Origin: Candidatus Methanoperedens sp.
GTDB taxonomy: Archaea > Halobacteriota > Methanosarcinia > Methanosarcinales > Methanoperedenaceae
DNA: 57,653 nt
Direction of reading: 5' to 3'
Assembly: GCA_026552975.1 (NCBI GenBank)
Contig: JAPMTR010000077.1
Location: 1-57,653, forward strand
Shown: piece by piece, positions 5,261-27,838 of the stretch
Layout of the letters: every line of letters starts with the position of its first letter
Position numbering within the stretch: the first letter of the stretch is position 1
Made by a program: the position numbers and the translations under genes
Notes under the pieces: generated by a model
Told to the model about the DNA's origin: nothing
Seen by the model: the letters and a program-made list of their open reading frames with translations, nothing else
Database searches by the model: none

Positions 5261-5303
5261 ATATTTTACCTCCAATACGTTTTTACTCATAATAGATTTC
5301 AGA

Positions 5304-5360
5304 ATGTATATACTTACTCACTATGAATGATAATATAAAATCTGAAATTGACTATATGTG
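5304..5360. promoter_or_regulatory. cooS upstream region with Lrp-like half-site
   Basis: The AT-rich 130-bp gap between cooS and the Lrp gene has ATGTATAT at 5304-5311. This is the same 8-mer that forms both arms of the palindrome in the Lrp promoter (5989-6007). A further CTATATGTG lies near 5351. This suggests that the Lrp protein binds here and controls cooS. Confidence 0.45.
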
Positions 5361-5391
5361 ATAACAATAAAACATTTACATGAAGAGTTGC

Positions 5392-5970
5392 CTATTTCCA
5401 GATATTTCCACTATAGTTGTTAGTTACAGGACATCCCAGACACCTGTTAGATATATGATGATGGCAATCCTCACATTTACATTGATTTCCACAGGGCGGA
5501 GTGTCTTTGAACTCAAAGTTCATCCTCAAAGGCATGATCAAATCTTTCATCGGTGTTATCACTATGCTGACCTCGGCGCTTTTAACCAGAGGGTTATTTC
5601 TTAGATGTCCATCCACGATAGCCTCAAGAGTAGCGATATCCTCGCTTACGAAAAAAAGACAAAGGTTATGTTTTCCTGACACGATCAGACCATTTAAGAA
5701 GTATGGGCAGTCCTTGAAAATGTCAAGCAACGATGAAGTATTGTTGGCTGTCACATCAACCTTTGCCATGTGAAGTTTAACTTTTTTTAGATTCATTCCT
5801 ACGATATGAACAAGAGCTCCTTTTTGTTTTAATTTGTGAATCCTTGCACTGACAGATGGCTGGGATATTTTAAGTTTTTCTGCCATATCATTCTGGGACA
5901 TTTCAGGATATTTCTCCAGCAGGGACAATATCTCCCTATCTCTTTTATCAAGGTCCAGAAAATCTCGCAT
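5392..5970 (-). CDS. Lrp/AsnC regulator with Cys-rich tail
   Basis: A 192-residue transcription factor. Residues 1-60 form an AsnC-type winged helix (LDKRDREILSLLEK, then SQPSVSARIHKLK), and about 65-145 form the RAM ligand/oligomerisation domain. Residues 160-190 are unusual: a tail with about six cysteines and several histidines (CGNQCKCEDCHHH, then CLGC). This looks like a metal or Fe-S sensing module. The gene lies upstream of cooS in the same direction and has a perfect palindrome in its own promoter, so it is probably an autoregulated redox, metal or CO-responsive regulator of cooS. Small-molecule specificity is unknown. Confidence 0.85.
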   Translation of the reverse strand: MRDFLDLDKRDREILSLLEKYPEMSQNDMAEKLKISQPSVSARIHKLKQKGALVHIVGMNLKKVKLHMAKVDVTANNTSSLLDIFKDCPYFLNGLIVSGKHNLCLFFVSEDIATLEAIVDGHLRNNPLVKSAEVSIVITPMKDLIMPLRMNFEFKDTPPCGNQCKCEDCHHHISNRCLGCPVTNNYSGNIWK

Positions 5971-5988
5971 AAATCTAAACTATCAAAG

Positions 5989-6007
5989 ATGTATATATAA
6001 TATACAT
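5989..6007. promoter_or_regulatory. 19-nt palindromic operator
   Basis: A perfect dyad, ATGTATAT-ATA-ATATACAT, 19 bp upstream of the Lrp start codon. It overlaps a likely TATA element between the divergent Lrp and ferredoxin genes. The arm sequence recurs before cooS at 5304. It is a probable Lrp binding site. Confidence 0.6.
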
Positions 6008-6095
6008 ATAATTCAGAATTCAATGTTATAATTTAACTATACTTCAAAGCCAATAACTTTATACGAAATAAAACCTGATATTAATATGATAAAAT

Positions 6096-6842
6096 ATGAA
6101 AAGAAAGATAGTATCTATTGATGAAGAAAAGTGTAATGGCTGCGGTGAATGCATACCTAACTGTGCCGAAGGAGCAATTAAGATCATTGACGGAAAAGCA
6201 AAACTATTAGATGATAAGTTCTGCGATGGACTTGGTGCATGTCTTGGACACTGTCCCCAGGATGCAATCAGAGTAATCGAAAGGGATGCGCTAGAGTTTG
6301 ATGAGGAGGCGGTAAAGATGCACCTGAATGTTACGGAAGAAAAGCCCAATAAGTTACATAAAGGAGTACCCCGAGGAATGATGCATGGAGCAGCGGCACC
6401 TCACGGATGTCCGGGCAGCATGGCAATGGATTTCAGGAGCGAGCAAAGCTCAAATGCCACAGTGTCACAGAGGCAGGAACCTCAATTGAGGCAGTGGCCT
6501 GTACAACTTTCACTTGTTTCTCCACAGGCATCATATTTCAAGGATGCTGACCTTCTCGTGGCCGCTGATTGCGTTCCATTTGCGTACCCGAATTTCCATC
6601 AGGATTTCCTTGCAGGAAAGTCGCTCGTTATAGGATGTCCCAAGCTGGATGATGTGGATTTCTATATAGATAAGTTGACTGAATTGATCAAGACCAGCAA
6701 TATTAAAAGCATCACTCTTGTCAACATGGAAGTGCCCTGCTGTTTCGGGTTGCAAAGAATCGTAGAAGAAGCAGTAAAGAAATCCGGGAAGATTCTGCCG
6801 ATCAGGCAGACAGTAATAACGATAAAGGGTGAAAAACAATAA
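6096..6842 (+). CDS. Double [4Fe-4S] ferredoxin-domain protein
   Basis: A 248-residue protein. Residues 1-60 are a 2x[4Fe-4S] ferredoxin: CNGCGECIPNC and, for the second cluster, CDGLGACLGHCP, which has one changed spacing. After a linker with His and Cys (HGCPG) comes a C-terminal domain of about 120 residues containing DCVPFAYPNFH, GCPKLDD and PCCFGL motifs. Proteins of this build are common in anaerobes near CO dehydrogenase or hybrid-cluster genes, but their reaction is not established. Divergent from the Lrp gene across the palindrome, it may share that control and carry electrons for CooS. Confidence 0.8.
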   Translation: MKRKIVSIDEEKCNGCGECIPNCAEGAIKIIDGKAKLLDDKFCDGLGACLGHCPQDAIRVIERDALEFDEEAVKMHLNVTEEKPNKLHKGVPRGMMHGAAAPHGCPGSMAMDFRSEQSSNATVSQRQEPQLRQWPVQLSLVSPQASYFKDADLLVAADCVPFAYPNFHQDFLAGKSLVIGCPKLDDVDFYIDKLTELIKTSNIKSITLVNMEVPCCFGLQRIVEEAVKKSGKILPIRQTVITIKGEKQ

Positions 6843-6926
6843 TTCAACTGCGGACGTGAAAGCACCATCTATAGGCACGACATGAATGTGTCTGCAGTTA
6901 AATGACTCGAAAAATGAGATAATTGG

Positions 6927-7202
6927 ATGAGTTGCATTGATGAGCTGGATTACGAGATACTGCTACCAAACAGTTCTGTAAAGGAATGCGCCGATTACAT
7001 AAAGAAAAATTTTAAAGAAATCTATTTTGTGCGCCAGGGATACATGATTTTTAATACATATTTGATCGGCATAAATCCAATTCCGGTTGCAGTGGATAAC
7101 GAATACATTATTATGCCTTATGTCAAACCATGCCATGGCAGCTTCGTTCTGAGAATTAAAGGAAAATTTGAAGTTGAAAGGCTAAGAGCCGCAGGTTTAT
7201 AA
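6927..7202 (+). CDS. Small DUF1894-like protein
   Basis: A 91-residue soluble protein whose stop codon overlaps the start of the methanogenesis-marker-14 gene (TAATG). Size and sequence character recall the DUF1894 family of small methanogen proteins, but I could not confirm this by alignment. No catalytic motif is visible; two cysteines (C3, C15) and a PCHGSF segment stand out. Coupling to marker 14 suggests a shared role in methyl-coenzyme-M-related metabolism. Confidence 0.7.
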   Translation: MSCIDELDYEILLPNSSVKECADYIKKNFKEIYFVRQGYMIFNTYLIGINPIPVAVDNEYIIMPYVKPCHGSFVLRIKGKFEVERLRAAGL

Positions 7203-8728
7203 TGAACCCCATCAAGCTGATCCTGGAATGCTATTTTGGCCCAAAACCAGGGATAGCCGATAGCCCGCCCATACGGCCTGTCGAATTGAAGGCAGACCCA
7301 TATAGACTTGCTGAGTCGATCCCGTTCTTCCTGGTAGCATCTATTGAAGTTGGAAACACTACAACAAAATGCATCCTGACCGGAACGAACATGAAAGATG
7401 GCCGCTCACGTCTTGTAAACAAGACCGTGAGAATGACTCGTAATGTACGAAAACCAAAACCAAATGAGCGGATATTTGGCACAACATTGAGCGGTGTAGC
7501 CCTGACAAGGGAATCGATCTCTGAATTAGTCCGGGATACCTTGATCGAGGCGCATGAGAATGTAAATCTCGATATCAGGACAGACCTTGATTTTGCTGTG
7601 AGGTCAACAGGTGTTGTTGCAGGTTTTTCATCTCCCCATGAAGTAGGTGAATTCGTAAAAGCCCTGGCCGACGGATGCCTTCTTGCAGGTATTCCCCCTA
7701 AAAAAATGGTTCCAGCTATGTCTATCGATAATGTGCCTGTTAAGTTCCAGCCCCACAGTTTTATTAATAAAGTAGTATTTACAGGCGCTGTGGGAGGGGT
7801 TCTACCCCCCATTGGTTCCACTGGAGTGGAGATAGTGGCAAACGAGATGGAAGGCGAGCTTGCGACAGCCGGGATCAAGGAGGGTGCTAAATGGACAGAC
7901 GTGGATTTCAGGAATCCTGTTTTTTCGATGGATTTTGGTACCACACTTAAAGGCCGCATCACCAATGATGAGATCCCTTATGCCAGAACCATTGCTAACC
8001 TGTGCGGTTATGCAGGCGCGATCCCTGATGCTGTGATAAAAGGAACCGATCTTGTGGATAAGAGATATGGTGCTGCACTTGATCTATTCAAAGACAAAAA
8101 GGAGGTCATGATCTGGCTCACAAAAAACAGTATTATTAAAAAATATGCCCAGTCAATCGATTCTTTGATAACTGTCGAGCTGGTGCCGCATGATAGGGAT
8201 AAATACGGAAGTGTGCCTGTAGATCCTGCTGCGGCAAGAGATATAGGTGTCATGCTCATGGGCTGTGATGTTGGCATTAATGGAGACCTTATGCCTAAAC
8301 TCACCCAGATCGGCGAAGAAATATATTCAAAGCACGGTTTAAAAACGATGTTTGCAACTCTTGATCTTGTTTCTGCGATGATGGTAAAGAGGCTTGTAAA
8401 ATTGAGCCTTGATAATCATCTGATCTGTGAGAAAACATCTATCGGGTTAACAGGCAGGGCAGCCATCACAGGCTGCAAGCCGTACCTGATACTGGATGAG
8501 ATAGAGAAACTTGGGATTTATGATAATGCAAGAAACCATGTGGTTTTCGTGGATGATGGCCTTGCCCGCGGCGCCGGAGTTATGGCTCGCTGTATGAACT
8601 CACTGGGAGTCCCGGGTAATCCGATCGGGGGAATAAGGGGTGGAGGATGCGTCATGGGAAAGCGCATCGAGCATTATAAAAAATCAAAAGAGAAAGGCTC
8701 TGGGACTTCCAGTCTGAATGCAAGTTAA
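7202..8728 (+). CDS. Methanogenesis marker protein 14
   Basis: A 508-residue ASKHA-fold ATPase-like protein. IEVGNTTTKCIL near residue 48 is the phosphate-1 loop and FSMDFGTTLKG near 240 the second nucleotide-binding segment. The C-terminal VVFVDDGLARGAGVMARCMNS and GGIRGGGCVMGKR are typical of marker 14, a protein restricted to methane-metabolising archaea. It resembles activators that reduce corrinoid or Fe-S enzymes, and a role in maturation or activation of methyl-coenzyme M reductase or methyltransferases is plausible but unproven. Its presence beside a nitrate reductase operon is strong evidence for a nitrate-dependent methanotroph. Confidence 0.88.
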   Translation: MNPIKLILECYFGPKPGIADSPPIRPVELKADPYRLAESIPFFLVASIEVGNTTTKCILTGTNMKDGRSRLVNKTVRMTRNVRKPKPNERIFGTTLSGVALTRESISELVRDTLIEAHENVNLDIRTDLDFAVRSTGVVAGFSSPHEVGEFVKALADGCLLAGIPPKKMVPAMSIDNVPVKFQPHSFINKVVFTGAVGGVLPPIGSTGVEIVANEMEGELATAGIKEGAKWTDVDFRNPVFSMDFGTTLKGRITNDEIPYARTIANLCGYAGAIPDAVIKGTDLVDKRYGAALDLFKDKKEVMIWLTKNSIIKKYAQSIDSLITVELVPHDRDKYGSVPVDPAAARDIGVMLMGCDVGINGDLMPKLTQIGEEIYSKHGLKTMFATLDLVSAMMVKRLVKLSLDNHLICEKTSIGLTGRAAITGCKPYLILDEIEKLGIYDNARNHVVFVDDGLARGAGVMARCMNSLGVPGNPIGGIRGGGCVMGKRIEHYKKSKEKGSGTSSLNAS

Positions 8729-8777
8729 AATCCTATGAAAACGATGCGCTGCAACTCCATCGCATTATTTTTCTATA

Positions 8778-8833
8778 AGCTATAGTTGAAAATATAACTT
8801 TGAGCTATAGTTCATAACGGATATATATTTACG
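8778..8833 (+). promoter_or_regulatory. nar operon promoter with direct repeats
   Basis: Two copies of AGCTATAGTT (8778-8787 and 8803-8812), 25 bp apart, flank an inverted AGTT...AACT. A TATA-like ATATATATTT lies at 8821-8830. The repeats are just upstream of the TATA box, as expected for an activator or repressor site. A related TATAGTTGA is upstream of tusA near 24888. Confidence 0.55.
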
Positions 8834-8874
8834 TTGACAATTCATAAACCATAAGAGGATGTGACTTTTAAAAA

Positions 8875-9000
8875 ATGCAGATAGGTGATGACTTCATGAT
8901 AATGCCTGGAATAAAGTATCAGTTGTATAGAGACTCTATTGAGCGAAAATTAATCGGGAAAAAAAGATCGATATTAGATGGAATGGGGTACGTCTCATGA
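8875..9000 (+). CDS. Possible 41-aa leader peptide of nar operon
   Basis: A short open frame of 41 codons whose TGA overlaps the narG start (ATGA at 8997). A GAGG ribosome site lies at 8856-8859, somewhat far from the ATG, and the frame includes further ATG codons at 8896 and 8902. The product is basic towards the C-terminus and has no recognised motif. Start-stop overlap with narG argues for translational coupling, but a chance frame cannot be excluded. Confidence 0.45.
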   Translation: MQIGDDFMIMPGIKYQLYRDSIERKLIGKKRSILDGMGYVS

Positions 9001-12000
9001 GTTCTTTAACAGGTACCCAACATAGTTCTGTTCCGACTATAGAAAAAATAACGCGAAGAAATTTTATAAAAATTTCCGCAGCTGCAGTTGCAGCATTAGG
9101 TATGAGTAACCCCGTACTTGCTGCTTTCAAATTTATCCCTGAGATCGATAATCCTCTTGACTTTTACCCTGACAGGGACTGGGAGAAGATATACCGCGAT
9201 CAGTTTAAACATGATCATACGATTCACTTTCTATGCGCTCCTAACGATACCCACAACTGCCTCTTGAGGGGATATGTAAAAAATGACATCATTACCAGGA
9301 TAGGCCCAAGCTATGGCTACGGCAAAGCAAAAGATGTTTACGGGAACCAGGCATCCCACCGATGGGATCCACGCTTATGCGAGAAAGGGCTTGTGATGGT
9401 TCGAAAGATATACGGACCGAGAAGAGTGAAATACCCAATGGTCAGGGAAGGGTTCAAAAACTGGGTTGACGCCGGTTTTCCAAGGGACGAAGACGGGAGA
9501 ATGCCAGAAAAATATCGCAATCGTGGGAAAGAATCCTTTGTAAAGGTTACTTTCGAAGAGGCGTGCGATATCGTTGCAAAATCCGCGGCCAGCATTGCAA
9601 CTACATACTCAGGGAAGACTGGAGAGAACCTTCTTAAGAAACAGGGCTATGACGAATCAATGATCGAAGAAATGCAAGGAGCAGGGACTCAAACGCTGAA
9701 GCTCCGGGGTGGAATGGCATTCTTAGGGGCAACAAGAATCTTTGGGATGTACAGGTTCGCAAACTCATTAGCGCTTCTGGATGACAAGATACGAAAGGTT
9801 GGAAAAGAGAAGGCTCTGGGCGGGCGGGGTTTTGACAGTTATTCATGGCACACGGATCTGCCTCCGGGACATACTATGACATGCGGCCACCAGACAATGG
9901 ATTTTGATCTTTCCACAGTGGAAAATGCTAACCTTGTTATCTGTTGGGGAATGAACTGGATCTCCACAAAAATGCCTGATGCGCACTGGTTAACAGAAGC
10001 GCGGCTTAAAGGGACGAATGTCGTTACTGTGGCATGTGAGTACCAGTCTACATCCAACAAGGCAAATAATGTCATCGTTATTCGGCCTGGAAGCGATACT
10101 GCCTTTGCTCTTGGGCTTGTTAATATAATTATCAGTGAGAACCTTTACGATACTGACTTTGTGAGGGGGCATACAGACATGCCTCTTTTAGTGCGGATGG
10201 ACACTCTCAAACTGCTCAAGCCTCAGGATATAATTGCTGATTACAAGCCCAGCGAACTGAAAAAGATGACAGTACTCAAACAAGGGGAACATGCACTTCC
10301 AAACATGGAGCAGGACCGCCAGATAACAACCGAAAAACTGCGTGATGAATGGGGGGATTTCATTGCCTGGAATTCAGATACAAATCAAACAGAAATCGTT
10401 ACGAGAGATGATGCAGCCACAAATAATAATTTTGCTCTTGAAGGCGAATTTACAGTTGATACCTTAGACGGGAAAAAAATCTCTGTTAGACCCGTGTTCG
10501 ACATGCTCAAAGAACATGCCTCATATTTCACTCCCGAGGTCGTAAGTGATTTATGCAGTGTGAACCAGGATGCGATAACCTGGCTGGCCCGTGAAATTGC
10601 AAAAAACAAATCAAAAACCCTTGTACCTGTCGGAATGGGTCCGAACCATTTCTACAACGGTGACCTAAGTGGCAGAGCAATATTCCTTGTTTGCGCTCTC
10701 ACTAAAAATATAGGGTTCCACGGGGGAAATATCGGAAGTTTCTCAGGTAACTACAGGGGCGCATATTTCAACGGCCTTCCTTATTATATCGCTGAAGATC
10801 CTTTTGATATTGAACTTGACCCTGCAAAAACCCCCCGTCACAAGGATTATTATAAATATGAATCTGCTCACTACCTTAATTATGGTGACCGTCCGCTCAG
10901 GGCAGGAGATAAGCTTTTCACCGGGAAAAGCCACATGCCCACCCCGACAAAATTCTTCTGGTTCAATAACGGGAACTCTATTCTTGGAAATCTGAAATGG
11001 CATCATGATTTTGTGATGAACACGCTTCCAAAGATCGAATGCGTGGTTGTGAATGAATGGTGGTGGACAGCGTCTTGTGAATACGCTGATGTGGTCTTCG
11101 CAATAGATTCATGGGCAGAGTTAAAATACCCTGATATGACCGCAGCTGTCACCAATCCATTCTTGTCGATATTTCCAAGAACCTCCCTGAAGAAGGTGCA
11201 TGATACCCGCAGCGATATCGAAGTTCTGGCAGGCGTTGGAAAAGCGATGGCAAAAGTTACAGAAGATGCTCGTTTTGATGATTACTGGAAGTTCGTGAAC
11301 GAACAGAATGTCGAGGTCTATCTCCAGAGGATCATCGACCACTCTTCTACCCTCAAAGGCTACAAAATTGAAGAGCTTGAGGCAAACGCAAGTGAAGGCA
11401 TACCAGCGCTGATTATGTTACGAACCTATCCCAAAGCCATGGGCTGGGAACAGTCCGTTGATAATAAGCCACATTACACGAAATCCGGGAGGATGGAGTT
11501 TTATCGCGATGAAGATGAGTTTATAGAGTACGGGGAGAACATCCCTGTTCATCGTGAACCCATTGATTCCACGATATATGAACCGAATGTGATCGTGTGC
11601 GGTGGGACCAATTTGATAAGACCTAAGAGCCCGGAGGAATATGGTTTATCACGGGATGATCTCTCCTGCGAAGTCAGGCAGGTCAGAAATGTTATAATAC
11701 AGCCTGCGCAGGTCACAAAGACTGTCCATCCCCTGCGTAAGAGTGGTTTTTCTCTTGTTTACATAACGCCTAAATATCGCCATGGTGCACATACCACGCC
11801 AGTTGATATCGATCTCATGTCCCTCTGGTTTGGGCCATTCGGGGATCTATCACGTCGGGATAAAAGAATGCCCTGGGTAGGGGAAGGATATGTTGATCTG
11901 AACCCGGCAGATGCAAAGGAACTGGGAATAGCAGATGGAGACTATGTCTATATTGATGCCGATCCCGATGATCGGCCATTCCGGGGCTGGCAGAAAAAGC

Positions 12001-12461
12001 CCGACGATCACAGGGTGCACCGCGCAATGATGCGTGCGCGCTATTATATGGGCATTCCTCGCGGCATAGCCCGTTCATGGCATAATATGTTCGTTGCCAC
12101 CTATGGTTCTGTAGAAGGTCATGAAACTAATCCGGATAAACTTGCAAGGAACCCGCGCACAGGCTACCAGGCAATGTTCAGATATGGTTCTCATCAGTCT
12201 GCAACTCGTGCCTGGCTTAAGCCGACCTTAATGACAGATTCGATGGCACGCAAGGACTATTTTGGACAAAAAATTGGACAAGGCTTTGCTGCTGATGTCT
12301 ACTGCACGGTCGGAGCCCCAAAAGAGGCGTTCGTGAAGGCTACAAAAGCAGAGCAGGGCGGTGTGGAACATGCCCTCTGGAGACCGGCTGATCTTGGCTT
12401 CAGACCAGGCTACGAAGGCGAAGCTATTAAAAAATTCCTCAAAGGGGGCTTTTCATTATGA
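8997..12461 (+). CDS. narG: Nitrate reductase alpha subunit, Tat-exported
   Basis: A 1154-residue molybdopterin oxidoreductase of the type II DMSO-reductase (Nar/Nxr) group. TRRNFIKI at about 19-26 begins a twin-arginine signal, so the enzyme works outside the membrane. C80, C88 and an upstream His region form the FS0 cluster site with a later Cys near 130. GGRGFDSYSWHTDLPPG near residue 275 matches the segment carrying the Asp ligand to molybdenum in NarG/NxrA. The enzyme reduces nitrate to nitrite; the reverse is possible by homology alone. The order narG-narH-chaperone-gamma and the Mo-cofactor genes downstream support the call. Confidence 0.92.
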   Translation: MSSLTGTQHSSVPTIEKITRRNFIKISAAAVAALGMSNPVLAAFKFIPEIDNPLDFYPDRDWEKIYRDQFKHDHTIHFLCAPNDTHNCLLRGYVKNDIITRIGPSYGYGKAKDVYGNQASHRWDPRLCEKGLVMVRKIYGPRRVKYPMVREGFKNWVDAGFPRDEDGRMPEKYRNRGKESFVKVTFEEACDIVAKSAASIATTYSGKTGENLLKKQGYDESMIEEMQGAGTQTLKLRGGMAFLGATRIFGMYRFANSLALLDDKIRKVGKEKALGGRGFDSYSWHTDLPPGHTMTCGHQTMDFDLSTVENANLVICWGMNWISTKMPDAHWLTEARLKGTNVVTVACEYQSTSNKANNVIVIRPGSDTAFALGLVNIIISENLYDTDFVRGHTDMPLLVRMDTLKLLKPQDIIADYKPSELKKMTVLKQGEHALPNMEQDRQITTEKLRDEWGDFIAWNSDTNQTEIVTRDDAATNNNFALEGEFTVDTLDGKKISVRPVFDMLKEHASYFTPEVVSDLCSVNQDAITWLAREIAKNKSKTLVPVGMGPNHFYNGDLSGRAIFLVCALTKNIGFHGGNIGSFSGNYRGAYFNGLPYYIAEDPFDIELDPAKTPRHKDYYKYESAHYLNYGDRPLRAGDKLFTGKSHMPTPTKFFWFNNGNSILGNLKWHHDFVMNTLPKIECVVVNEWWWTASCEYADVVFAIDSWAELKYPDMTAAVTNPFLSIFPRTSLKKVHDTRSDIEVLAGVGKAMAKVTEDARFDDYWKFVNEQNVEVYLQRIIDHSSTLKGYKIEELEANASEGIPALIMLRTYPKAMGWEQSVDNKPHYTKSGRMEFYRDEDEFIEYGENIPVHREPIDSTIYEPNVIVCGGTNLIRPKSPEEYGLSRDDLSCEVRQVRNVIIQPAQVTKTVHPLRKSGFSLVYITPKYRHGAHTTPVDIDLMSLWFGPFGDLSRRDKRMPWVGEGYVDLNPADAKELGIADGDYVYIDADPDDRPFRGWQKKPDDHRVHRAMMRARYYMGIPRGIARSWHNMFVATYGSVEGHETNPDKLARNPRTGYQAMFRYGSHQSATRAWLKPTLMTDSMARKDYFGQKIGQGFAADVYCTVGAPKEAFVKATKAEQGGVEHALWRPADLGFRPGYEGEAIKKFLKGGFSL

Positions 12462-13594
12462 ATGTTTACAATTGGCAGTTGAACAGGGATATGAATTATA
12501 AATATCAGGAGATACATCCGCAAAAACAGGTTGCGTGGGTCTTTGATACTAATAAGTGCATTGCTTGCCAGACATGCACTATTGCATGCAAAAATGCCTG
12601 GACATCAGGTAAAGGACAGGAGTACATGTTCTGGAACAACGTTGAGAGCAAGCCATGGGGATTCTATCCTCTTGGATGGGATGTAAAGCTCCTGGAAAAA
12701 CTCGGGCCCCAGAAATGGAATGGCGATAAATATGCTGGAAAGACCATCTTTGAAGGAGCACAGTACGGTGAGGAAATATTGGGATACGCACCTGATGAAA
12801 AGGATTACTCTTATCCAAACCTTGGGGAGGATGAAGTAAACCAGCAGGTAAAAGAAAAGGAATATATAACGATCCCTCACGAGCCCTGGATGTTCTATTT
12901 ACAGAGAATATGCAACCACTGCTCATATCCGGCTTGCCTTGGCGCCTGCCCGAGAAAAGCGATCTACAAAAGAAAAGAAGACGGAATAGTTCTTATCGAC
13001 CAGAAAAGATGCAGGGGTTATCAGGAGTGTGTGCGTGCCTGCCCTTATAAAAAATCATTTTTCAGGACGAATACGGGAAAATCAGAAAAGTGCATATCCT
13101 GTTTCCCTGCTGTTGAACAGGGGAAACAAACGCAATGTGTCCAGAATTGCATCGGGAAGATCAGGCTTTTCGGTTTCAAGAATAACTTGAATGAAGTAAG
13201 AGGGGACAATCCTATTGATTATCTTGTCCACATTAAAAAGATCGCTCTTCCACTTTATCCGCAATTCGGAACCCAGCCCAACGTGTACTACATACCACCG
13301 ATACACGTACCCGAAGCATTCAACAGGCAACTGTTCGGTCCTGGAGCTAAGAACGCAGTTGAACAGTACAAAAAAGCCTATGAGGATATGGACCTTACCG
13401 GTCTTTTGATGCTTTTCGGCTCTACTGATCAAATAATAAGTTCATTTAAAGTCGAAGGTGACATAAACAATGGGCACTGCGCTGGCTATGACGATAAGGG
13501 GAATGAACTTATAAAAGTCCCAATAAAAGAACCCATAATTATCAGAGAGGAATACGATGAACAGAGAAACGTGCGAAGATTCAATGTTACGTGA
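12458..13594 (+). CDS. narH: Nitrate reductase beta subunit
   Basis: A 378-residue Fe-S subunit passing electrons to NarG. Four cysteine groups are visible: CIACQTCTIAC, CNHCSYPACLGACP, CRGYQECVRACPYKK and CISC with later QCVQNC. In the third group an aromatic Tyr replaces the second cysteine, as Trp does in bacterial NarH, so it should bind [3Fe-4S] as in that family. It overlaps narG by 4 bp. It has no signal of its own and would be exported with NarG by the Tat route. Confidence 0.93.
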   Translation: MNVYNWQLNRDMNYKYQEIHPQKQVAWVFDTNKCIACQTCTIACKNAWTSGKGQEYMFWNNVESKPWGFYPLGWDVKLLEKLGPQKWNGDKYAGKTIFEGAQYGEEILGYAPDEKDYSYPNLGEDEVNQQVKEKEYITIPHEPWMFYLQRICNHCSYPACLGACPRKAIYKRKEDGIVLIDQKRCRGYQECVRACPYKKSFFRTNTGKSEKCISCFPAVEQGKQTQCVQNCIGKIRLFGFKNNLNEVRGDNPIDYLVHIKKIALPLYPQFGTQPNVYYIPPIHVPEAFNRQLFGPGAKNAVEQYKKAYEDMDLTGLLMLFGSTDQIISSFKVEGDINNGHCAGYDDKGNELIKVPIKEPIIIREEYDEQRNVRRFNVT

Positions 13595-14123
13595 TACGGG
13601 GAGAATGAACATGTACAAAACTTTGTCATTGGCTTTCTCTTATCCTGATGAACATTTCTTCAACCTGTTTTCTTTCACAGATGCAGAAAAGAAGGAAATT
13701 GTTTTGGAATATGACAGGCTTTTCAGGGCAAAAGATATCTGGCTTTATGGGACAGAGTACACAGCGCTGAATGAATTCCAGAGGGTTCAGTATCTATCTG
13801 ACATCATGGGTTTCTATAAAGCATTTGGTCTTGATCCTGAAAATGATAGACCGGATTCACTGCATATCGAACTTGAATTCATGCATTATCTTATCTTTAA
13901 AAGATTTCATGCACTTGAGAAGGACGAAGCAGATTCAAATGAAAAAGCATTTATCTGCCTTGATGCACAGAAAAAATTCTTTAATGAGCACCTCTACCCT
14001 GCGGCAGAAAAAATAGCAAAAGCAATAATTTCCCAAAGCAACAATGATTTTTATGTAGAAACGGCGAATGACATGCTTGAATTCTTAGAATCAGAAGAGA
14101 AAATTTATGGGAGGAATACATAG
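13557..14123 (+). CDS. TorD/NarJ-type assembly chaperone
   Basis: A 188-residue, all-helical, acidic protein with the LAFSYPDEHFF motif near residue 22 typical of TorD/NarJ chaperones, and HIELEFMHYLIF in the middle. Such proteins hold the molybdoenzyme before cofactor insertion and Tat export. It overlaps the 3' end of narH by 38 bp. GAGG lies about 7 bp before the ATG at 13557, but ATG 13611 with GGGAG before it is an alternative start. Confidence 0.82.
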   Translation: MNRETCEDSMLRDTGRMNMYKTLSLAFSYPDEHFFNLFSFTDAEKKEIVLEYDRLFRAKDIWLYGTEYTALNEFQRVQYLSDIMGFYKAFGLDPENDRPDSLHIELEFMHYLIFKRFHALEKDEADSNEKAFICLDAQKKFFNEHLYPAAEKIAKAIISQSNNDFYVETANDMLEFLESEEKIYGRNT

Positions 14124-14978
14124 ATGAAAAAAAATAATATTATTTTGATCATCATTGTTGCAATATCTTCAGTTGCACTGGCTTATTATGGATTAGGACT
14201 TTCAAGTGGAATACTGGCTGCCACACAAACATATCAAATACCAATAGATATTCAGTTCATTGACAAAGATATAGATCTTGAGAAAGGCATTTCTCCTGAG
14301 ATATGGTCGCCTATCCATCCAATCGATATAAAGATGGAATATCAGGTCATGGTATTACCGTGGGGAAAGAGCTTGATCAACCCCGTTACTGTAAAGTCAT
14401 TCCACAACGGAAAGGAAATTTACTTTTATATGAGATGGAAGGATGATACTGAGGATAGAATTATCGGGACAAGCAGGTTCTCTGACGCAGCGGCCATAAT
14501 GTTCCCTGTTGGAAATAATGTTCAAAATTCCACAATTATGATGGGATTCATGGGAAATGGGTCAAATATCTGGCAGTGGAAAGCAAGCCAGGACAACGAG
14601 TACTGGTTAAATGAGACATCAAAAATTGAGGCTTATAGCGATTATTATTATCCTTTCGAAAATAATGAAACATTATTAGTTTCAAAGGTAACACCCGGAT
14701 CAGCAGTCAACGATCTTATGGTAATAAGAGTGGCTACACTTACGCCCAAACCTGCCCAGAATGTGCAGGGCAGAGGGCTCTGGGATAACGGAACCTGGCA
14801 GGTGGTATTCAAACGTTCTCTTAACACCGCCGATCCGGAACAAGACGCTGATTTTAACACCCTAGCAAAAGTTGCTTTCGCCGTATGGAATGGGTCAAAT
14901 GGCGACAGGGGAGGCAGGAAGTCCATCTCCAATGACTGGATTTCAATTAATATAATACCTATGGAGGGTACAAAATGA
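14124..14978 (+). CDS. Haem-binding gamma subunit (ethylbenzene-DH-like)
   Basis: A 284-residue exported protein: a hydrophobic N-terminal segment (8-30), then a beta-rich domain. IWSPIHPIDIKMEYQVMVLPWG and the FYMRWKDDTEDR segment resemble the haem-b-binding gamma subunits of type II DMSO-reductase enzymes (ethylbenzene or DMS dehydrogenase, selenate reductase, archaeal nitrate reductases). It would carry electrons from the cupredoxin or cytochrome carriers to NarH. It starts right after the chaperone stop codon and overlaps the CuA gene by 4 bp. Confidence 0.82.
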   Translation: MKKNNIILIIIVAISSVALAYYGLGLSSGILAATQTYQIPIDIQFIDKDIDLEKGISPEIWSPIHPIDIKMEYQVMVLPWGKSLINPVTVKSFHNGKEIYFYMRWKDDTEDRIIGTSRFSDAAAIMFPVGNNVQNSTIMMGFMGNGSNIWQWKASQDNEYWLNETSKIEAYSDYYYPFENNETLLVSKVTPGSAVNDLMVIRVATLTPKPAQNVQGRGLWDNGTWQVVFKRSLNTADPEQDADFNTLAKVAFAVWNGSNGDRGGRKSISNDWISINIIPMEGTK

Positions 14979-15424
14979 AAATCGATAAGCTGATAATCGG
15001 CATCATTATTTTGGCATTACTTGTGGGACTTCCGCTTATACTCGCGCAACCGGAAGAGCCAAAGGAGAAGACAATAATCATCAACGCTAAACAGTTCTCC
15101 TATACACCAGATACAGTGGAGGTGAACAGGGGAGACAGGGTAACCATCAGGTTAATCAGCACAGATGTGCACCACGGCTTATACATCGATGGCTACGAGG
15201 TTTCAACAGATGCGCGCCCAGGACAGGATGGGAGCTTAACTTTTGTCGCAAATAATACCGGAAAATTCGTAATGCGTTGCTCGGTCACATGTGGACCTTT
15301 CCATCCATACATGATAGGCTATCTTAAGGTCAAGCCTGACTACCGGCTCTTTGGATCAATATGGCTTGCGGTGGGGATATTCATTTGTTCGATTTTACTT
15401 GTATCAAGGAGGCAGAAGCAATGA
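14975..15424 (+). CDS. Membrane-anchored CuA-type cupredoxin (first)
   Basis: A 149-residue protein with an N-terminal hydrophobic helix (7-24), a cupredoxin fold and a second C-terminal helix (126-143). C102-x3-C106-x3-H110-x2-M113 with upstream H66/H67 is the full dinuclear CuA ligand set of cytochrome oxidase subunit II and nitrous oxide reductase. No oxidase catalytic subunit is next to it. It is thus a likely electron-transfer protein of the nitrate reductase chain, or a relic of an oxidase-like complex. Confidence 0.88.
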   Translation: MKIDKLIIGIIILALLVGLPLILAQPEEPKEKTIIINAKQFSYTPDTVEVNRGDRVTIRLISTDVHHGLYIDGYEVSTDARPGQDGSLTFVANNTGKFVMRCSVTCGPFHPYMIGYLKVKPDYRLFGSIWLAVGIFICSILLVSRRQKQ

Positions 15425-16827
15425 CAGAAAAGATACTTGGACTGATCCCCGTTGACTGGAGATTTGAGCTTACTTCGCTTCCATATGTCAGAAAAATAAT
15501 CAAGAGCAGGTGGATGCCTTTCCTGCCTATAGTGCTGAATCTCTCCGTATTCACGGTAATACTGATGGCAGGCTTTGTTGGAGGGGTTTCTGCTGGCAAT
15601 TATAATTTTGGGATAATGTTTGTATGGATAGTCTGGTGGCTTTTATTAATGATGGTCATGGTGCCATTTTTCTCACGGGTCTGGTGCATGATATGCCCGC
15701 TTCCTGCTTTCGGTGAATGGCTCCAGAGACTCGGTTTCATGAAGGTGAGAAATAAACTCTTTGGGCTTAACAAAAAATGGCCGAAAGCATTGAAGAACAT
15801 GTGGCTGGTGAACTTCCTGTTCCTGGGCACCACTTATACCACAGGCTTCTTAACGACACGTCCAATAGCTACTTTCATACTGTTAATGTCGATAATCATT
15901 GGCTCCATCGTTCTAATGGCTGTTTTTGAGAAGAGAAACTTCTGCAAGTACATTGGATGCCCTGTGGGCGGTTTCCTGGGGCTTTATTCGAACATAGCGG
16001 TAACTGAGATACGCGCAAAGGATCCGCAGATATGCAAGGATCACAAGCATAAGGATTGTGTGATCGGGAATGAAAAAGGTCATGCCTGTCCATGGATGAT
16101 ACTCCCGTTCGACATCGGGAGAAATACTTATTGCGGGATGTGCCTGGAATGTTTCAAGACCTGTCCCTATGATAACATGGCGATTAATCTTCGACCGCCT
16201 GCCACAGATTTACTAGTAGATAAGAATCGCGGACTGGATGAGGCATGGAAGGCCTTTATCATGCTGGGAATCGCTATATTCTTTTTCCTGATCATGCAGG
16301 GTAACATGGGATTCCTGAAAGACTGGGCAAACGCAACGACAACAGAAGGCTATCTCACTTTTGTTGCACTGCACTCAATTTTCAATCTGCTGCTGATTCC
16401 GGGAGTGTTCTTTGTCTTTGTCTATGCTTCCCGCACCCTTGGCAATAAGGAGATTCCGCTTAAAAAATTATTTACAAATTTCTCCTACACACTTGTGCCC
16501 ATGGGACTGATAGCATGGATAGCCTTCAGCTTCGGCATCCTCTTTCCCAACAGCAGTTATGTGCTCCATGTGATCTCTGACCCGTTTGCCTGGGGCTGGG
16601 ATCTCTTCGGGACTTCGCATTTCCCCTGGACACCTTTTCTGACAGGGGTGATGCCCTACTTCCAAATAGGAACTTTGCTATTCGGGCTTGTCTTATCGCT
16701 TGACATAGGCTTTAAGATATCCAAGCAGACATTCCAGAAAAGAGACCAGGCTGTCAGGGGTTTCATTCCCATCGCGGCCTTCCTGACAGTAGTGACAATA
16801 TTCCTTATATGGCTCTTCACAGGGTAA
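15421..16827 (+). CDS. NapH/NosR-like membrane ferredoxin
   Basis: From the ATG at 15421 about 468 residues (an upstream in-frame ATG at 15361 lies inside the CuA gene and is less likely). There are about eight membrane helices. SRVWCMICPLPAF, the NapH-type CxxCP box, lies near residue 80; CKYIGCPVGG near 175; and CGMCLECFKTCP, a [4Fe-4S] site, near 240. NapH/NosR-like proteins pass electrons between quinols and extracytoplasmic reductases. Here it probably feeds the CuA proteins or NarH from menaquinol. It overlaps the CuA gene by 4 bp. Confidence 0.85.
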   Translation: MTEKILGLIPVDWRFELTSLPYVRKIIKSRWMPFLPIVLNLSVFTVILMAGFVGGVSAGNYNFGIMFVWIVWWLLLMMVMVPFFSRVWCMICPLPAFGEWLQRLGFMKVRNKLFGLNKKWPKALKNMWLVNFLFLGTTYTTGFLTTRPIATFILLMSIIIGSIVLMAVFEKRNFCKYIGCPVGGFLGLYSNIAVTEIRAKDPQICKDHKHKDCVIGNEKGHACPWMILPFDIGRNTYCGMCLECFKTCPYDNMAINLRPPATDLLVDKNRGLDEAWKAFIMLGIAIFFFLIMQGNMGFLKDWANATTTEGYLTFVALHSIFNLLLIPGVFFVFVYASRTLGNKEIPLKKLFTNFSYTLVPMGLIAWIAFSFGILFPNSSYVLHVISDPFAWGWDLFGTSHFPWTPFLTGVMPYFQIGTLLFGLVLSLDIGFKISKQTFQKRDQAVRGFIPIAAFLTVVTIFLIWLFTG

Positions 16828-16840
16828 AGAGGTGAATAAA

Positions 16841-17251
16841 ATGGAAAAAAAACAGATTACGGAAATAATTGCGGCGATTCTTGTGCTTCTGGCCACAGTC
16901 GGCGTTATTGGTGCTGCGCTCCTTTATGATGAACATCTATGGGGAGGGCTCAGAACCATCGAACTCACTGCACAGGCCCCTGAAAGGGGAAACTGGAACA
17001 TACAGGAGATACATCTGGTCAGGGGAGAACCTGTAAGGATAAAGATCAGGAATATAGACACTGTGAGCCACGGTTTTGCCATCCCGGAGCTCGGGATAAG
17101 CCTCAACGGCACCGGGGAGATCAAGCCCGGCAATGTGGGGGTAATCGAGTTCACGCCAGAGAAAACAGGTGATTTCTTGTTTACCTGCACAACGTGGTGC
17201 AGCACCCAGCACATGCAGATGACGGGCAGGATAATAATTTCAGAAAAATAA
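16841..17251 (+). CDS. CuA-type cupredoxin (second)
   Basis: A 136-residue protein with one N-terminal membrane helix (8-29) and a cupredoxin domain outside. H77, then C116-x3-C120-x3-H124-x2-M127, give a complete CuA ligand set. The start at 16841 is chosen because GAGGTG lies 6 bp before it. It shares the fold but little sequence with the first CuA protein, and lacks that protein's C-terminal helix. Two distinct CuA carriers flanking one NapH-like protein is unusual. Confidence 0.88.
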   Translation: MEKKQITEIIAAILVLLATVGVIGAALLYDEHLWGGLRTIELTAQAPERGNWNIQEIHLVRGEPVRIKIRNIDTVSHGFAIPELGISLNGTGEIKPGNVGVIEFTPEKTGDFLFTCTTWCSTQHMQMTGRIIISEK

Positions 17252-17270: not shown

Positions 17271-18482
17271 ATGAGTTCAAAAGTAATATACGGAGCAATA
17301 ATTGGTTTCATAGCCATATGGATAATCCCGGTGGTTCAGGCTAATGAAGAATTTCAGTCAAGTTATACCTGCATCGAATGCCATCCTGACAGGTACGAAG
17401 AATGGACGCATTCCACACATGCCCTCGCAGTGAGCGATCCGGTCTTTGAAGCATCGTACATGCGAGCGCTCAAATCCGACCCACAATACAGGGAATACTG
17501 CCTGAGCTGTCATTCTCCAATTACCAGGGCATCAAAGGATTTCAACCTCACAAAATCGATTTCCATTGAAGGGGTTGGCTGCAGCTTCTGTCACTCGGTC
17601 ACAGGGGTAGAAAAAAACAATTATATATTTAACCAGAGCAACCCGATGCAGGGTCCATATTCAGATTCAAAGACAGAGGCACATACATCTGCATATTCTG
17701 ACTTACTCACAAAATCCGAGTTCTGTGCAGGCTGTCATGAGTTCTCAATTAACGATGTGCCGGTTTATGAAACATACTCTGAGTGGAAGGAAAGTCCCTA
17801 TGCGTCTGAGGGAAAACAATGCCAGGACTGCCACATGGAGGCTAAACGTGGCGAAGCAGCAAAGAACGGGACGATAAGGGAAAAGGTTTACCAGCATTTC
17901 TGGTACGGGGGACATTCAGGTTTGTTCCTGGATAAGGCGTTTGATTTGAAAGAGGACTTAATCCAGGAGAATGGAGACATGATCAAAGTGACGCTCAACA
18001 TCACCAACAAGAATGTGGGTCACAAGGTCCCGAGCGGTTTCCCTGCGCGAAAGGTAATTCTGCATTTCACCGCAAGCGACGAGAATGGGCAGGAGATATA
18101 TAATGAAAATAGAGTTTACGCCAAGACCCTTGTTGACCAATACGGCAATGAAGTGGCTGACTTCTGGAAGGCAACCTCCATATCAAAGGATAATAGAATC
18201 AAACCAAGAGAGAGCAGAATTGAAGTATTCGAGTTCAAAGTGCCCGATAGTTCAGGAAAAGTAAAGACCAAGGCGACATTGGAGTATCAGCTTGAAGCAG
18301 AGATTATCACCAAGTCTTTGGAATCTATGAACCTTGAAATTGCAGAGACAAGTAAGACGACGTCGCTCAACAGGACAATTGGAGTAGAAGCAACGATCGC
18401 AAAGAACACGCCAGGTATTGGATGGATTGGAGCAATTGCAGTTATGATTGCTGTGTCCATGATATACAGAAAGAAAAATTGA
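17271..18482 (+). CDS. Pentahaem c-type cytochrome
   Basis: A 403-residue exported cytochrome: signal peptide 1-24, then five CxxCH motifs (CIECH, CLSCH, CSFCH, CAGCH, CQDCH) in the first 190 residues. A beta-sandwich-like region follows, then a tail with TPGIG, a hydrophobic helix and RKKN, resembling a PGF-CTERM sorting signal. The haem half resembles cytochrome c554-like domains. GGAGG precedes the ATG. As part of the nar operon it probably brings electrons to the reductase on the outer face of the membrane. Confidence 0.87.
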   Translation: MSSKVIYGAIIGFIAIWIIPVVQANEEFQSSYTCIECHPDRYEEWTHSTHALAVSDPVFEASYMRALKSDPQYREYCLSCHSPITRASKDFNLTKSISIEGVGCSFCHSVTGVEKNNYIFNQSNPMQGPYSDSKTEAHTSAYSDLLTKSEFCAGCHEFSINDVPVYETYSEWKESPYASEGKQCQDCHMEAKRGEAAKNGTIREKVYQHFWYGGHSGLFLDKAFDLKEDLIQENGDMIKVTLNITNKNVGHKVPSGFPARKVILHFTASDENGQEIYNENRVYAKTLVDQYGNEVADFWKATSISKDNRIKPRESRIEVFEFKVPDSSGKVKTKATLEYQLEAEIITKSLESMNLEIAETSKTTSLNRTIGVEATIAKNTPGIGWIGAIAVMIAVSMIYRKKN

Positions 18483-25119: not shown

Positions 25120-25374
25120 ATGGTAGAAGATATGGTTTCCAGTCAGTTGGATCTCAGAGGAGTGATGTGCCCTATTAATATTGTTCAGCTCAAGCTGAAA
25201 ATGAAAGAAATTGAAAACGATGGTATTTTAGAAATAGTTATTGACGAAGGAGAACCGATGCAAAATGTGCCGCGTTCGATAAAAAAAGAAGGGCATAAGG
25301 TAATAAAAGTTGAAAAAATTCCTGAGGGTTGCTATAAACTTCTGGTACGGAAAAATGGAGGCAGTTTGAAATGA
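25120..25374 (+). CDS. tusA: TusA-like sulfur carrier
   Basis: An 84-residue protein with LDLRGVMCPINIVQLKLKM near residue 11-29: the CP motif on helix 1 carries the persulfide in TusA. It delivers sulfur to partners such as molybdopterin or siroheme sulfur enzymes. GGAG is 5 bp before the ATG at 25120. Its stop overlaps the start of the sulfite-reductase-like gene (ATGA), so they act together. Confidence 0.88.
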   Translation: MVEDMVSSQLDLRGVMCPINIVQLKLKMKEIENDGILEIVIDEGEPMQNVPRSIKKEGHKVIKVEKIPEGCYKLLVRKNGGSLK

Positions 25375-26366
25375 TAGATAAATCTGTAAAAGATAAAAGC
25401 AATAAAGTTAAAGTAGATACGAAAATTGATGGGAAAACGGGAGACATAGATTTCAATACTCTCAAATCCGGGGGTCTGATCAAGCAAACGCAAAAAGATT
25501 TGTTCACTGTCAGACTTCGCTGCCCCGGAGGCAGGGTCCCGCTTTCAAAGCTTGAGAAAATTTTAGAAGTAGCAAAAAAATATGCCGGAGACTATGTACA
25601 TCTTTCCGTCAGGCAGTCTATTGAACTACCGTATGTTGATTACCATGATTTTAAAAAATTAAATGAGGAGTTATTAGAAGCTGATCAAAAGATCGCCTCT
25701 TGCGGCAGGCGGATCAGGGTGCCCACAGCATGTTCCGGCTGTGAGTATAATCCAAATGGCATAATGGATACGCAAAAAATGGCTGAACTTGTAAATGAAA
25801 AATTCTTTGCACATCCAATGCCCCATAAATTTAAGATCTCATTTTCAGGATGCCCCATAGATTGCGCCCGCACTTCTGAAAATGACCTTGGTTTTCAGGG
25901 CGCTGTCGAACCCAAATGGGTTGAAGAAATATGCATTGGATGCCGCATTTGCGCCAGTGCTTGCAGGGAAGGAGCGATAGAGAGCGATCCTGAGAGCGGA
26001 AGACCTATATTTTATGCTCAAAAATGTCTTTATTGCGGGGACTGTATCCGATCGTGCCCGACAGATTCATGGCAGGAAGAGAGAAAGGGCTGGATTATCC
26101 GCGTCGGTGGAAAGCATGGAAGACATCCTGTCGTGGGTCGCAAAATAGCCGAGTTTGTGAGCGATGAAGATATTCTGGAGTTCATTGAAGCGATTATAAA
26201 ATGGTACGAAAAAGCAGGCAGAGCATGTGGAACTTTGCGAATTGGGGATATTCTGAGAATGCCTGAACAATGGAATGATTTCATAAGCGAATTAAGAATT
26301 AGGTTTGATAAGAAACTGCTCCCGGATCCAAAAATGCCGTATAAGAATGAGATACACTTTGAGTGA
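25371..26366 (+). CDS. Siroheme sulfite-reductase-like protein (first copy)
   Basis: A 331-residue protein of the small dissimilatory-sulfite-reductase-like group found in methanogens. PTACSGCEYNPNG near 115 and SGCPIDCARTSENDLGFQG near 160 supply the ligands for the siroheme-coupled [4Fe-4S]. CIGCRICASACREGA and CLYCGDCIRSCP form an inserted 2x[4Fe-4S] ferredoxin domain. GGKHGRHP near 252 and the C-terminal segment match the second siroheme half. Substrate, sulfite or nitrite, is not proven. A close paralogue is at 29441-30418. Confidence 0.87.
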   Translation: MIDKSVKDKSNKVKVDTKIDGKTGDIDFNTLKSGGLIKQTQKDLFTVRLRCPGGRVPLSKLEKILEVAKKYAGDYVHLSVRQSIELPYVDYHDFKKLNEELLEADQKIASCGRRIRVPTACSGCEYNPNGIMDTQKMAELVNEKFFAHPMPHKFKISFSGCPIDCARTSENDLGFQGAVEPKWVEEICIGCRICASACREGAIESDPESGRPIFYAQKCLYCGDCIRSCPTDSWQEERKGWIIRVGGKHGRHPVVGRKIAEFVSDEDILEFIEAIIKWYEKAGRACGTLRIGDILRMPEQWNDFISELRIRFDKKLLPDPKMPYKNEIHFE

Positions 26367-27436: not shown

Positions 27437-27838
27437 TCAGCTTTTTGTTGCTATCTCTGGGGGTATGAGTGACCTTGCCATATTATAAACAAAGATGTAA
27501 ATAGCCAGAAGCGATATCGAACCAAATACCTCGGTCCCGAGCAGATAGCTGTTACTTGCATACCTGTAGGGCATGGTGAAAGCAAGGCCAATGAGACCTA
27601 TATTCTGAAGCCAGAATTGTATCTCAGCGAGGCGAAGGCTGTACAGGTCAGTGCCTGCGAATACCGGTAGAAGATGATATCCCACACCAAATATCATCAT
27701 TGAAACGAAGCCTATGAGGAGCACATGAGCGTGGGCGGGTGTAAGTGGTAATGAATTCAAAACCATTATGAATCCTATGGTGCTGCCTATGAGCAAATAA
27801 ATCAGGCTTGCCCAGGCAAATTTAAGCGGTATTTCCAT
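27437..27838 (-). CDS. Haem-copper-oxidase-subunit-I-like membrane protein
   Basis: A 133-residue membrane protein with four helices. PAHAHVLLIGFVSMMIFGVGYHLLP contains the His pattern seen in NnrS-like and cbb3-type subunit-I-like short proteins. It is far too short for an oxidase. In related gene sets such proteins occur near nitric oxide or haem functions. It ends the minus-strand operon that starts with the second sulfite-reductase-like gene. Confidence 0.75.
   Translation of the reverse strand: MEIPLKFAWASLIYLLIGSTIGFIMVLNSLPLTPAHAHVLLIGFVSMMIFGVGYHLLPVFAGTDLYSLRLAEIQFWLQNIGLIGLAFTMPYRYASNSYLLGTEVFGSISLLAIYIFVYNMARSLIPPEIATKS

Follow-up and report, generated by a model that had tools for sequence, protein, structure and literature searches.

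The nitrate reductase (nar) operon on contig JAPMTR010000077.1 (assembly GCA_026552975.1) bears on how Candidatus Methanoperedens couples its methane oxidation to extracellular nitrate. In this operon, two small CuA-type cupredoxins, here called CuA1 and CuA2, flank a long NapH-like membrane protein. The whole 57,653-nt stretch around the operon was analyzed (the window, to which the coordinates of all parts in Table 1 refer); parts, ligands, fold classes, gene orders and fusions were computed. A preliminary description of this DNA had proposed the two cupredoxins as carriers to an extracytoplasmic nitrate reductase. That route is likely right in outline, as Orf7::CuA1 fusions occur in other genomes and no CuA oxidase or NosZ was found in the own genome, but its scope was too narrow, because nitrate reductase is not the only partner of the module. 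We propose, with a probability of about 0.6, that CuA1 and CuA2 are outward-facing dinuclear-copper relays that form one electron-delivery module with the long NapH and feed Orf7-NarGH.

The two open reading frames (ORFs) lie at the coordinates given in the preliminary description and carry the CuA ligand set that had been ascribed to them. CuA1 contains CSVTCGPFHPYM at residues 102–113, with His66/His67 upstream, and CuA2 contains CTTWCSTQHMQM at residues 116–127, with His77 upstream; in both, the His plus C-x3-C-x3-H-x2-M set aligns with known CuA proteins. Of the 192 six-frame open stretches in the window with 80 codons or more, only CuA1 and CuA2 have the motif C-x3-C-x3-H-x2-M. When each of the two sequences was shuffled 400,000 times, the motif arose 5 times for CuA1 and twice for CuA2. 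Both proteins scored over the Pfam COX2 cut-off of 22 bits, CuA1 with 30.5 bits and CuA2 barely, with 22.6 bits. With the NosZ family profile (cut-off 625 bits), the two cupredoxins reached 52.7 and 40.9 bits, in its C-terminal part only. The closest sequences were Thermus-derived CuA domains for CuA1 (2.2e-15) and NosZ for CuA2 (9.2e-12).

Structure prediction gave both proteins the fold of CuA domains. Foldseek matched the CuA1 model to NosZ (1.8e-9) and Thermus ba3 CuA, and the CuA2 model to NosZ (best E 1.9e-9, root mean square deviation 1.6 over 103 columns) and also to Thermus CuA. The mean predicted local distance difference test score (pLDDT) of the AlphaFold2 models was 84.1 for CuA1 and 90.4 for CuA2; confidence in the ligand loop was low in CuA1 (mean pLDDT 66, residues 101–110), and the loop blocks of CuA2 reached 95 and 94. 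The proteins differ in length (149 vs 136 aa) and anchoring, as described before: the CuA1 model has helices at 3–23 and 123–148, and the CuA2 model a single N-terminal helix (3–34). The ligands were invariant in 17 of 17 CuA1 rows and 19 of 19 CuA2 rows (window plus loci of the NapH-alignment contig scan described below). In wider alignments, counted by eye, 24 of 26 CuA1 rows had all five ligands, and 23 of 28 CuA2 rows had all five in the standard spacing. Ligands, family profiles and predicted fold support the assignment of both proteins to the CuA type, with copper content as a prediction. Like subunit II of cytochrome oxidase (ba3/aa3), they combine the CuA ligand set and fold with a membrane anchor, but no COX1 gene is their neighbor. 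CuA2 is nearest to the C-terminal CuA domain of NosZ by both sequence and fold; unlike NosZ, however, CuA1 and CuA2 are stand-alone proteins lacking the NosZ catalytic domain.

Oxidases, NosZ and some NO reductases are the main enzymes in which CuA is known. The own assembly, which is 93.6% complete, contains no COX2-domain protein besides CuA1 and CuA2, and neither is adjoined by COX1, as both sit between Orf7 and a cytochrome gene. The one full-length COX1 match in this genome (G000:C107:9177-10421) lies elsewhere and is fused with FixO and cytochrome c domains. It is of cbb3 type (Pfam over cut-off; NCBIfam CcoN and PRK14485 matches under theirs), and cbb3-type oxidases do not use CuA. Two short COX1-like matches were also found, one of them within the window: the ORF at 27437–27838 (minus strand, 133 aa) covers 93 of 436 COX1 positions (PF00115, 37.8 bits). 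Many Methanoperedens genomes encode similar short COX1-like proteins of ~140–170 aa. NosZ over the family cut-off was found in none of 31 Methanoperedens genomes and in none of 14 control genomes; the profile was validated by the NosZ of an archaeal locus (L085, 786.4 bits). At E≤1e-6, the NosZ profile matched in 16 of the 31 genomes, and the listed matches fell in its C-terminal CuA part (positions 481–578). The earlier statement that no haem-copper oxidase or N2O reductase gene is present must therefore be corrected for the cbb3-type COX1 and the COX1 fragment, but it stands for CuA oxidases and NosZ. On the basis of these COX2, COX1 and NosZ searches, the reading that CuA1 and CuA2 serve a CuA oxidase or NosZ of their own genome was rejected, and no CuA-using oxidase or NosZ complex, named in the preliminary description as counter-evidence, appeared in them. 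As a separate observation, two Methanoperedens genomes encode another cupredoxin of ~154 aa, without a CuA motif, beside a membrane protein (L031 9266–9730, L032 5086–5547); weak NosZ-type matches in further genomes of the genus resemble it.

The NapH-like protein noted earlier between the cupredoxins is present, with a weak family score (NapH/MauN 17.8 bits vs cut-off 213; Fer4_5 23.4 vs 22) and its iron-sulphur cysteines kept. Cys 89, 92, 175, 180, 205, 213, 223, 238, 244 and 248 were invariant in 22 aligned NapH rows, and Cys241 nearly so. No solved structure was related to the NapH profile at E≤0.1. For a homologue, 9 transmembrane helices have been reported, five more than in the usual NapH (Arshad 2015, PMC4683180). 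NapG was absent from the operon genes scanned, the rest of the genome not having been searched for it, and the same paper reports no NapG in two relatives. The arrangement is like NapGH of periplasmic nitrate reductase in that a NapH-type membrane protein with iron-sulphur cysteines stands beside an outside reductase, but here NapH is extended to 468 aa and two CuA proteins occupy the position of NapG.

In a survey of the genus, which the preliminary description had suggested for its nar operons, COX2-domain proteins occurred in 8 of the 31 Methanoperedens genomes, two apiece and always as this pair around NapH. NarGHJ-Orf7 lies upstream of the module in six of the eight loci, but not in those of genomes G030 (L029) and G021 (L030), which are without NarGH. 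These two loci have an FrhB-like gene between CuA1 and NapH (L029 9399–10397, L030 11033–12031) and, downstream, a five-CxxCH followed by an eight-CxxCH cytochrome. The FrhB-like subunit, scored in L029 only, reached 136.6 bits with Pfam FrhB_FdhB_C (cut-off 23.3) and 233.2 bits with NCBIfam PRK09325, under the cut-off of 269. When the NarG of the window was searched at E≤1e-5, G021 gave no match and G030 distant matches only. In 19 genomes of the genus, NarG was found at 80–100% identity in five, all with the module, and as distant partial matches in four more; G024 is a sixth Methanoperedens genome with full NarG. This search covered all eight genomes that carry the module; the nine Methanoperedens genomes outside it are without the module.

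Outside the genus, genome contigs were scanned with the NapH alignment using two peptide patterns, so that only close kin were found. The scan yielded 19 loci, 13 of them outside Methanoperedens, in metagenome-assembled genomes (MAGs) titled Nitrospinota, Planctomycetota, Undinarchaeales, Spirochaetes, Woesearchaeota and Brocadiaceae (53–62% identical); titles such as Woesearchaeota (L070) and Undinarchaeales (L063) may come from misbinning. The order CuA1-NapH-CuA2 was kept in 12 of the 13 loci, with a CuA1 piece only in L061; the thirteenth (L065) begins at NapH on a contig edge. NarG relatives (60–70%) were found in 8 of 10 tested genomes with a close module, the exceptions being those of L060 and L070, and in L067 (titled Spirochaetes) the gene order from NarG to CuA2 is identical to that of the window. 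The CuA1 profile matched, at E≤1e-5, 87 of the 392 genomes searched in the window's phylum, whose families f9 and f34 we take to be Archaeoglobi. Fifteen such places were fetched: all 11 archaeal loci L085–L095 have the three parts in the order CuA1-NapH-CuA2, and four (L096–L099) hold a COX2-like protein only; further matches served solely as tree references. In Planctomycetota, long NapH matched in 62 of 392 genomes, and 20 stretches from 18 genomes were fetched. Not every long NapH has a CuA partner: six stretches (L135–L139, L154) hold a CuA-like protein, and 14 (L140–L153) none at E≤1e-4. Carriage by viruses found no support, as a single viral-contig scan showed no CuA2 relative; the scan was weak because it also used two peptide patterns. 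As recognized from these sequences, the hosts of the module are Methanoperedens, other archaea and MAGs of Planctomycetota, Nitrospinota and Spirochaetota. Independently of this, one CuA-less Planctomycetota stretch has a NirK-like region (L149 900–1835, 46% to the NirK of L070) ~5.7 kb from its long NapH.

In the NapH tree, 28 rows of CuA-partnered loci grouped apart from 7 rows without CuA (100/100). The CuA side includes L066b, a second NapH at a contig end for which no separate CuA partner was seen, as well as L094 and L095, whose partners are ligand-less; the CuA-less group comprises six of the stretches L140–L153 together with L031. The two FrhB-type NapH proteins nest within the Methanoperedens group (99/97), which points to an exchange of partners, in either direction, inside the genus. 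A recent duplication of the cupredoxin pair was rejected: the 23 CuA1 rows formed one group (99/95), and the 24 CuA2 rows were joined by a single long NosZ row at a weakly supported branch (58/13). Approximately unbiased tests rejected neither a single CuA2 clade (p 0.305) nor a grouping of CuA1 and CuA2 against 9 reference rows (p 0.239), of which L082 and L099 are identical in sequence.

Natural fusions point to the partners of the module. Orf7 and CuA1 form a single frame in L062, L066, L068, L069 and L071; the frames of L062, L066 and L068 were checked and have both an EB_dh and a COX2 domain. These fusions occur in four distinct Planctomycetota MAGs, behind NarG (L062) or NarGHJ (L066, L068, L069); L066 and L071 come from one MAG, L069 and L071 are alike where compared, and they were counted once. 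Of all the evidence in this analysis, the Orf7::CuA1 fusions best suggest electron exchange between CuA and the enzyme. CuA1 is fused to NapH in L060, L063 and 9 of the 11 archaeal loci (L086–L092, L094, L095). Archaeal frames of ~670–700 aa had been candidates for NosZ; those fetched proved to be CuA1::NapH fusions. A genuine NosZ (786.4 bits vs cut-off 625) adjoins CuA1-NapH-CuA2 in L085, with NosL/D/F/Y-like genes nearby (judged by sequence start and order alone) and, on the opposite side of the module, a molybdopterin-enzyme relative with 26% identity to NarG. CuA2 is fused to NirK in L070 (NirK part 300.8 bits vs cut-off 296.3), where a second frame upstream appears to contain a CuA-like and then a NirK-like domain (tblastn alone; both frames within 3794–8971). 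In L136, CuA2 is fused to cytochrome c, the other CxxCH there falling inside the CuA motif; CuA1 was not found in this locus, where only a short piece of contig precedes NapH. The Brocadiaceae genome of L072 has a second NapH (L154 2–2188), whose part from residue 213 on is fused to a GltD-type NAD(P)H dehydrogenase; a CuA-motif protein follows. The GltD part scored 492.1 bits with PRK12771, slightly under the cut-off of 516, and over the cut-off with Pyr_redox_2. By its neighbors, the module is associated with more than nitrate reductase: it comes with a NirK fusion (L070), beside NosZ (L085) and without NarGH (L029, L030).

The enzyme next to the module in the window is of the NxrA type. The closest solved structures of NarG, NarH and Orf7 are subunits A, B and C of 7b04, the nitrite oxidoreductase from Kuenenia. 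NarG scored 893.9 bits with NxrA of 7b04 and 128.3–134.5 bits with E. coli NarG entries; with NCBIfam narG it reached 160.9 bits vs a cut-off of 1084, and is thus not a canonical NarG. The full-length NxrA match and the twin-arginine (Tat) export signal (NCBIfam 21.6 bits, over 16.7; Pfam 21, under 22.7) place it among the NxrA/NarG external type II molybdenum enzymes. NxrC carries haem c. Unlike NxrABC, the window operon has an Orf7 without CxxCH and adds NapH and two CuA proteins. As the enzyme is of NxrA type, its direction is not readable from sequence. The grouping of Methanoperedens NarG with NxrA has already been published (PMC7327174, PMC10732223).

In the scheme that we propose, copper loading, protein contact, CuA order, donor and direction are inferred. 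NapH would take electrons at the membrane or cytoplasmic side, from menaquinol or from a cytoplasmic donor via iron-sulphur sites, and pass them to CuA on the outer face, where the CuA proteins would fill the place of NapG in NapGH. CuA1 would then reduce haem b of Orf7, from which electrons would reach the iron-sulphur clusters of NarH and the molybdenum of NarG, and nitrate would be reduced outside the cell. CuA1 is the likelier bridge, being joined to NapH in one set of genomes and to Orf7 in another. CuA2 could be a second relay, or a branch or exit to other acceptors, because it is fused to NirK and cytochrome c elsewhere. If NapH works as in NapGH, menaquinol would be its donor; the FrhB insertion, the GltD fusion and the cooS neighbors published for BLZ2 (PMC13079737) make F420H2, NAD(P)H or ferredoxin further candidates.

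Several points weigh against this scheme. Quinol oxidation by this NapH is argued by analogy, and the Figure 2 legend of Arshad 2015 (PMC4683180) routes electrons via a Rieske-cytochrome b complex and soluble cytochrome c. The CuA2 ligand spacing is non-standard in L060, L061 and L085. Archaeal L094 (3605–6004) and L095 (4752–7272) encode CuA1::NapH and CuA2 homologues without copper ligands in both cupredoxins, so these proteins may have a copper-free role. The usual CuA loading factors are also missing, since Sco1/SenC and PCuAC were found in none of the 31 Methanoperedens genomes (5 and 3 of the 14 control genomes were positive, respectively); in the Undinarchaeales MAG, a SCO protein lies ~4 kb from CuA2 (L063 14926–15603).

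The alternative that survives best, though we judge it rather unlikely, is that CuA1 and CuA2 act like COX2: a c-type cytochrome, e.g., the five-haem protein at 17271–18482, fed by Rieske-cytochrome b, would reduce CuA and thereby Orf7-NarGH, with NapH as a side branch or assembly partner. The five-CxxCH cytochrome follows CuA2 here and adjoins the module in six of the eight Methanoperedens loci, CuA2 is fused to cytochrome c in L136, and the route proposed in PMC4683180 involves Rieske-cytochrome b and soluble cytochrome c. However, the fusions of CuA1 with NapH and the constant order CuA1-NapH-CuA2 suggest that NapH is the direct partner, and no c554-like homologue was found in ~10 kb beyond CuA2 in L027, nor in L063 and L066–L072 at E≤1e-4 (in L028 the contig ends).

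We regard it as improbable that the CuA-like proteins are structural or copper-handling subunits off the electron path. Such a role would fit the absence of Sco and PCuAC from the genus and the ligand-less homologues of L094 and L095, whose neighbors are a molybdopterin enzyme and a protein of the EB_dh family (verified in L094), but the ligands are otherwise kept in most rows of the wider alignments, and CuA1 or CuA2 is fused to the redox partners NirK, cytochrome c, Orf7 and NapH. That the enzyme is a nitrite oxidoreductase, passing electrons from NxrA via Orf7 and CuA to the membrane, is very improbable: it would agree with the 7b04 matches, with module relatives in Brocadiaceae and Nitrospinota MAGs and with PMC10732223, which places Methanoperedens NarG in a nitrite-oxidizer clade and calls Kuenenia NXR bidirectional, but Methanoperedens reduces nitrate as it oxidizes methane or CO (PMC7327174, PMC13079737), so that reduction is the working sense with those donors, and no NarG relative was found in the Nitrospinota genome of L060 (1.4-Mb assembly).

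A wider idea is more tentative, and we hold it less likely than not. CuA1-NapH-CuA2 might be a general plug-in that uses copper instead of NapG or cytochrome bc1 and serves NxrA-type nitrate reductase, NirK, N2O reductase and multihaem cytochromes. It might also carry F420H2 or NAD(P)H electrons across the membrane straight to outside acceptors, bypassing the quinone pool, as the FrhB-like subunit of two Methanoperedens genomes and the GltD-NapH fusion of L154 would allow. From the fusions, a specific wiring diagram can be drawn and tested; they suggest that several phyla use CuA as a general extracytoplasmic relay when they reduce nitrogen oxides. To judge from the NarGH-less Methanoperedens loci, multihaem cytochromes may receive electrons from the same relay, which would open a possible route of extracellular electron transfer.

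The gene arrangement itself is not new. Arshad 2015 (PMC4683180, Table 1) lists NarG, NarH, NarJ, Orf7, HCO II, NapH and HCO II in the Methanoperedens nar operon; all seven genes were transcribed in MPEBLZ, the NapH extension was noted, and an unusual complex was proposed and left to further biochemical studies. PMC13079737 (2026) describes a 'non-canonical nitrate reductase' with HCOIIa and b, in the same cluster as two cooS genes in BLZ2. Both descriptions match the window in the same seven genes in the same order, but CuA ligands, a module in other phyla, fusions or NarGH-less loci were not found in the parts of these papers that were available. Related reports concern copper centers related to HCO II in ANME-2d (PMC5244752), scattered NapH homologues in ANME (PMC9012536), cupredoxins in Borgs (PMC9605863) and NapH and CuA in Bacillus (PMC3475470); the NapH-CuA pairing is absent from the text seen of the last three. 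No paper describing NapH-CuA pairs outside Methanoperedens was recognized in a search beyond which most subscription journals and preprints lay. What appears to be new is the conserved three-part module CuA1-NapH(long)-CuA2, with a NapH clade of its own across phyla, and its fusions.

Table 1. Genes of the nar operon in the window, with the evidence for their assignment
Feature	Position	Strand	Evidence
NarG / NxrA-type catalytic Mo subunit	8997..12461	+	1154 aa, Tat signal; 893.9 bits over residues 17-1150 vs 7b04_B, subunit A
NarH / NxrB-type iron-sulphur subunit	12458..13594	+	371.5 bits vs 7b04_A, subunit B
NarJ-type chaperone	13557..14123	+	Nitrate_red_del 52 bits vs cut-off 22.2
Orf7, haem b subunit, EB_dh family	14124..14978	+	EB_dh 117.2 bits; 95.8 bits vs 7b04_C; no CxxCH
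CuA1, CuA-type cupredoxin	14975..15424	+	149 aa; COX2 30.5 bits; ligands H67 (H66), C102, C106, H110, M113; predicted CuA-domain fold
NapH-like membrane iron-sulphur protein, long form	15421..16827	+	468 aa; invariant Cys
CuA2, CuA-type cupredoxin	16841..17251	+	136 aa; COX2 22.6 bits; ligands H77, C116, C120, H124, M127; top structural match of model NosZ CuA domain
Five-CxxCH cytochrome, c554-like	17271..18482	+	adjoins module in 6/8 Methanoperedens loci

The genes of the operon are tightly packed. The start of CuA1 lies within the end of Orf7, the NapH ATG at 15421 overlaps the CuA1 stop, and CuA2 begins 13 bases past NapH (ATG at 16841; an alternative start, GTG at 16832, is possible). TatA follows the five-CxxCH cytochrome in the gene order. 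Close to the operon, two ORFs of 331 and 325 aa (25371–26366, plus strand; 29441–30418, minus strand) have similar beginnings and, by eye, look like small sulfite/nitrite reductase-type proteins with ferredoxin cysteines.

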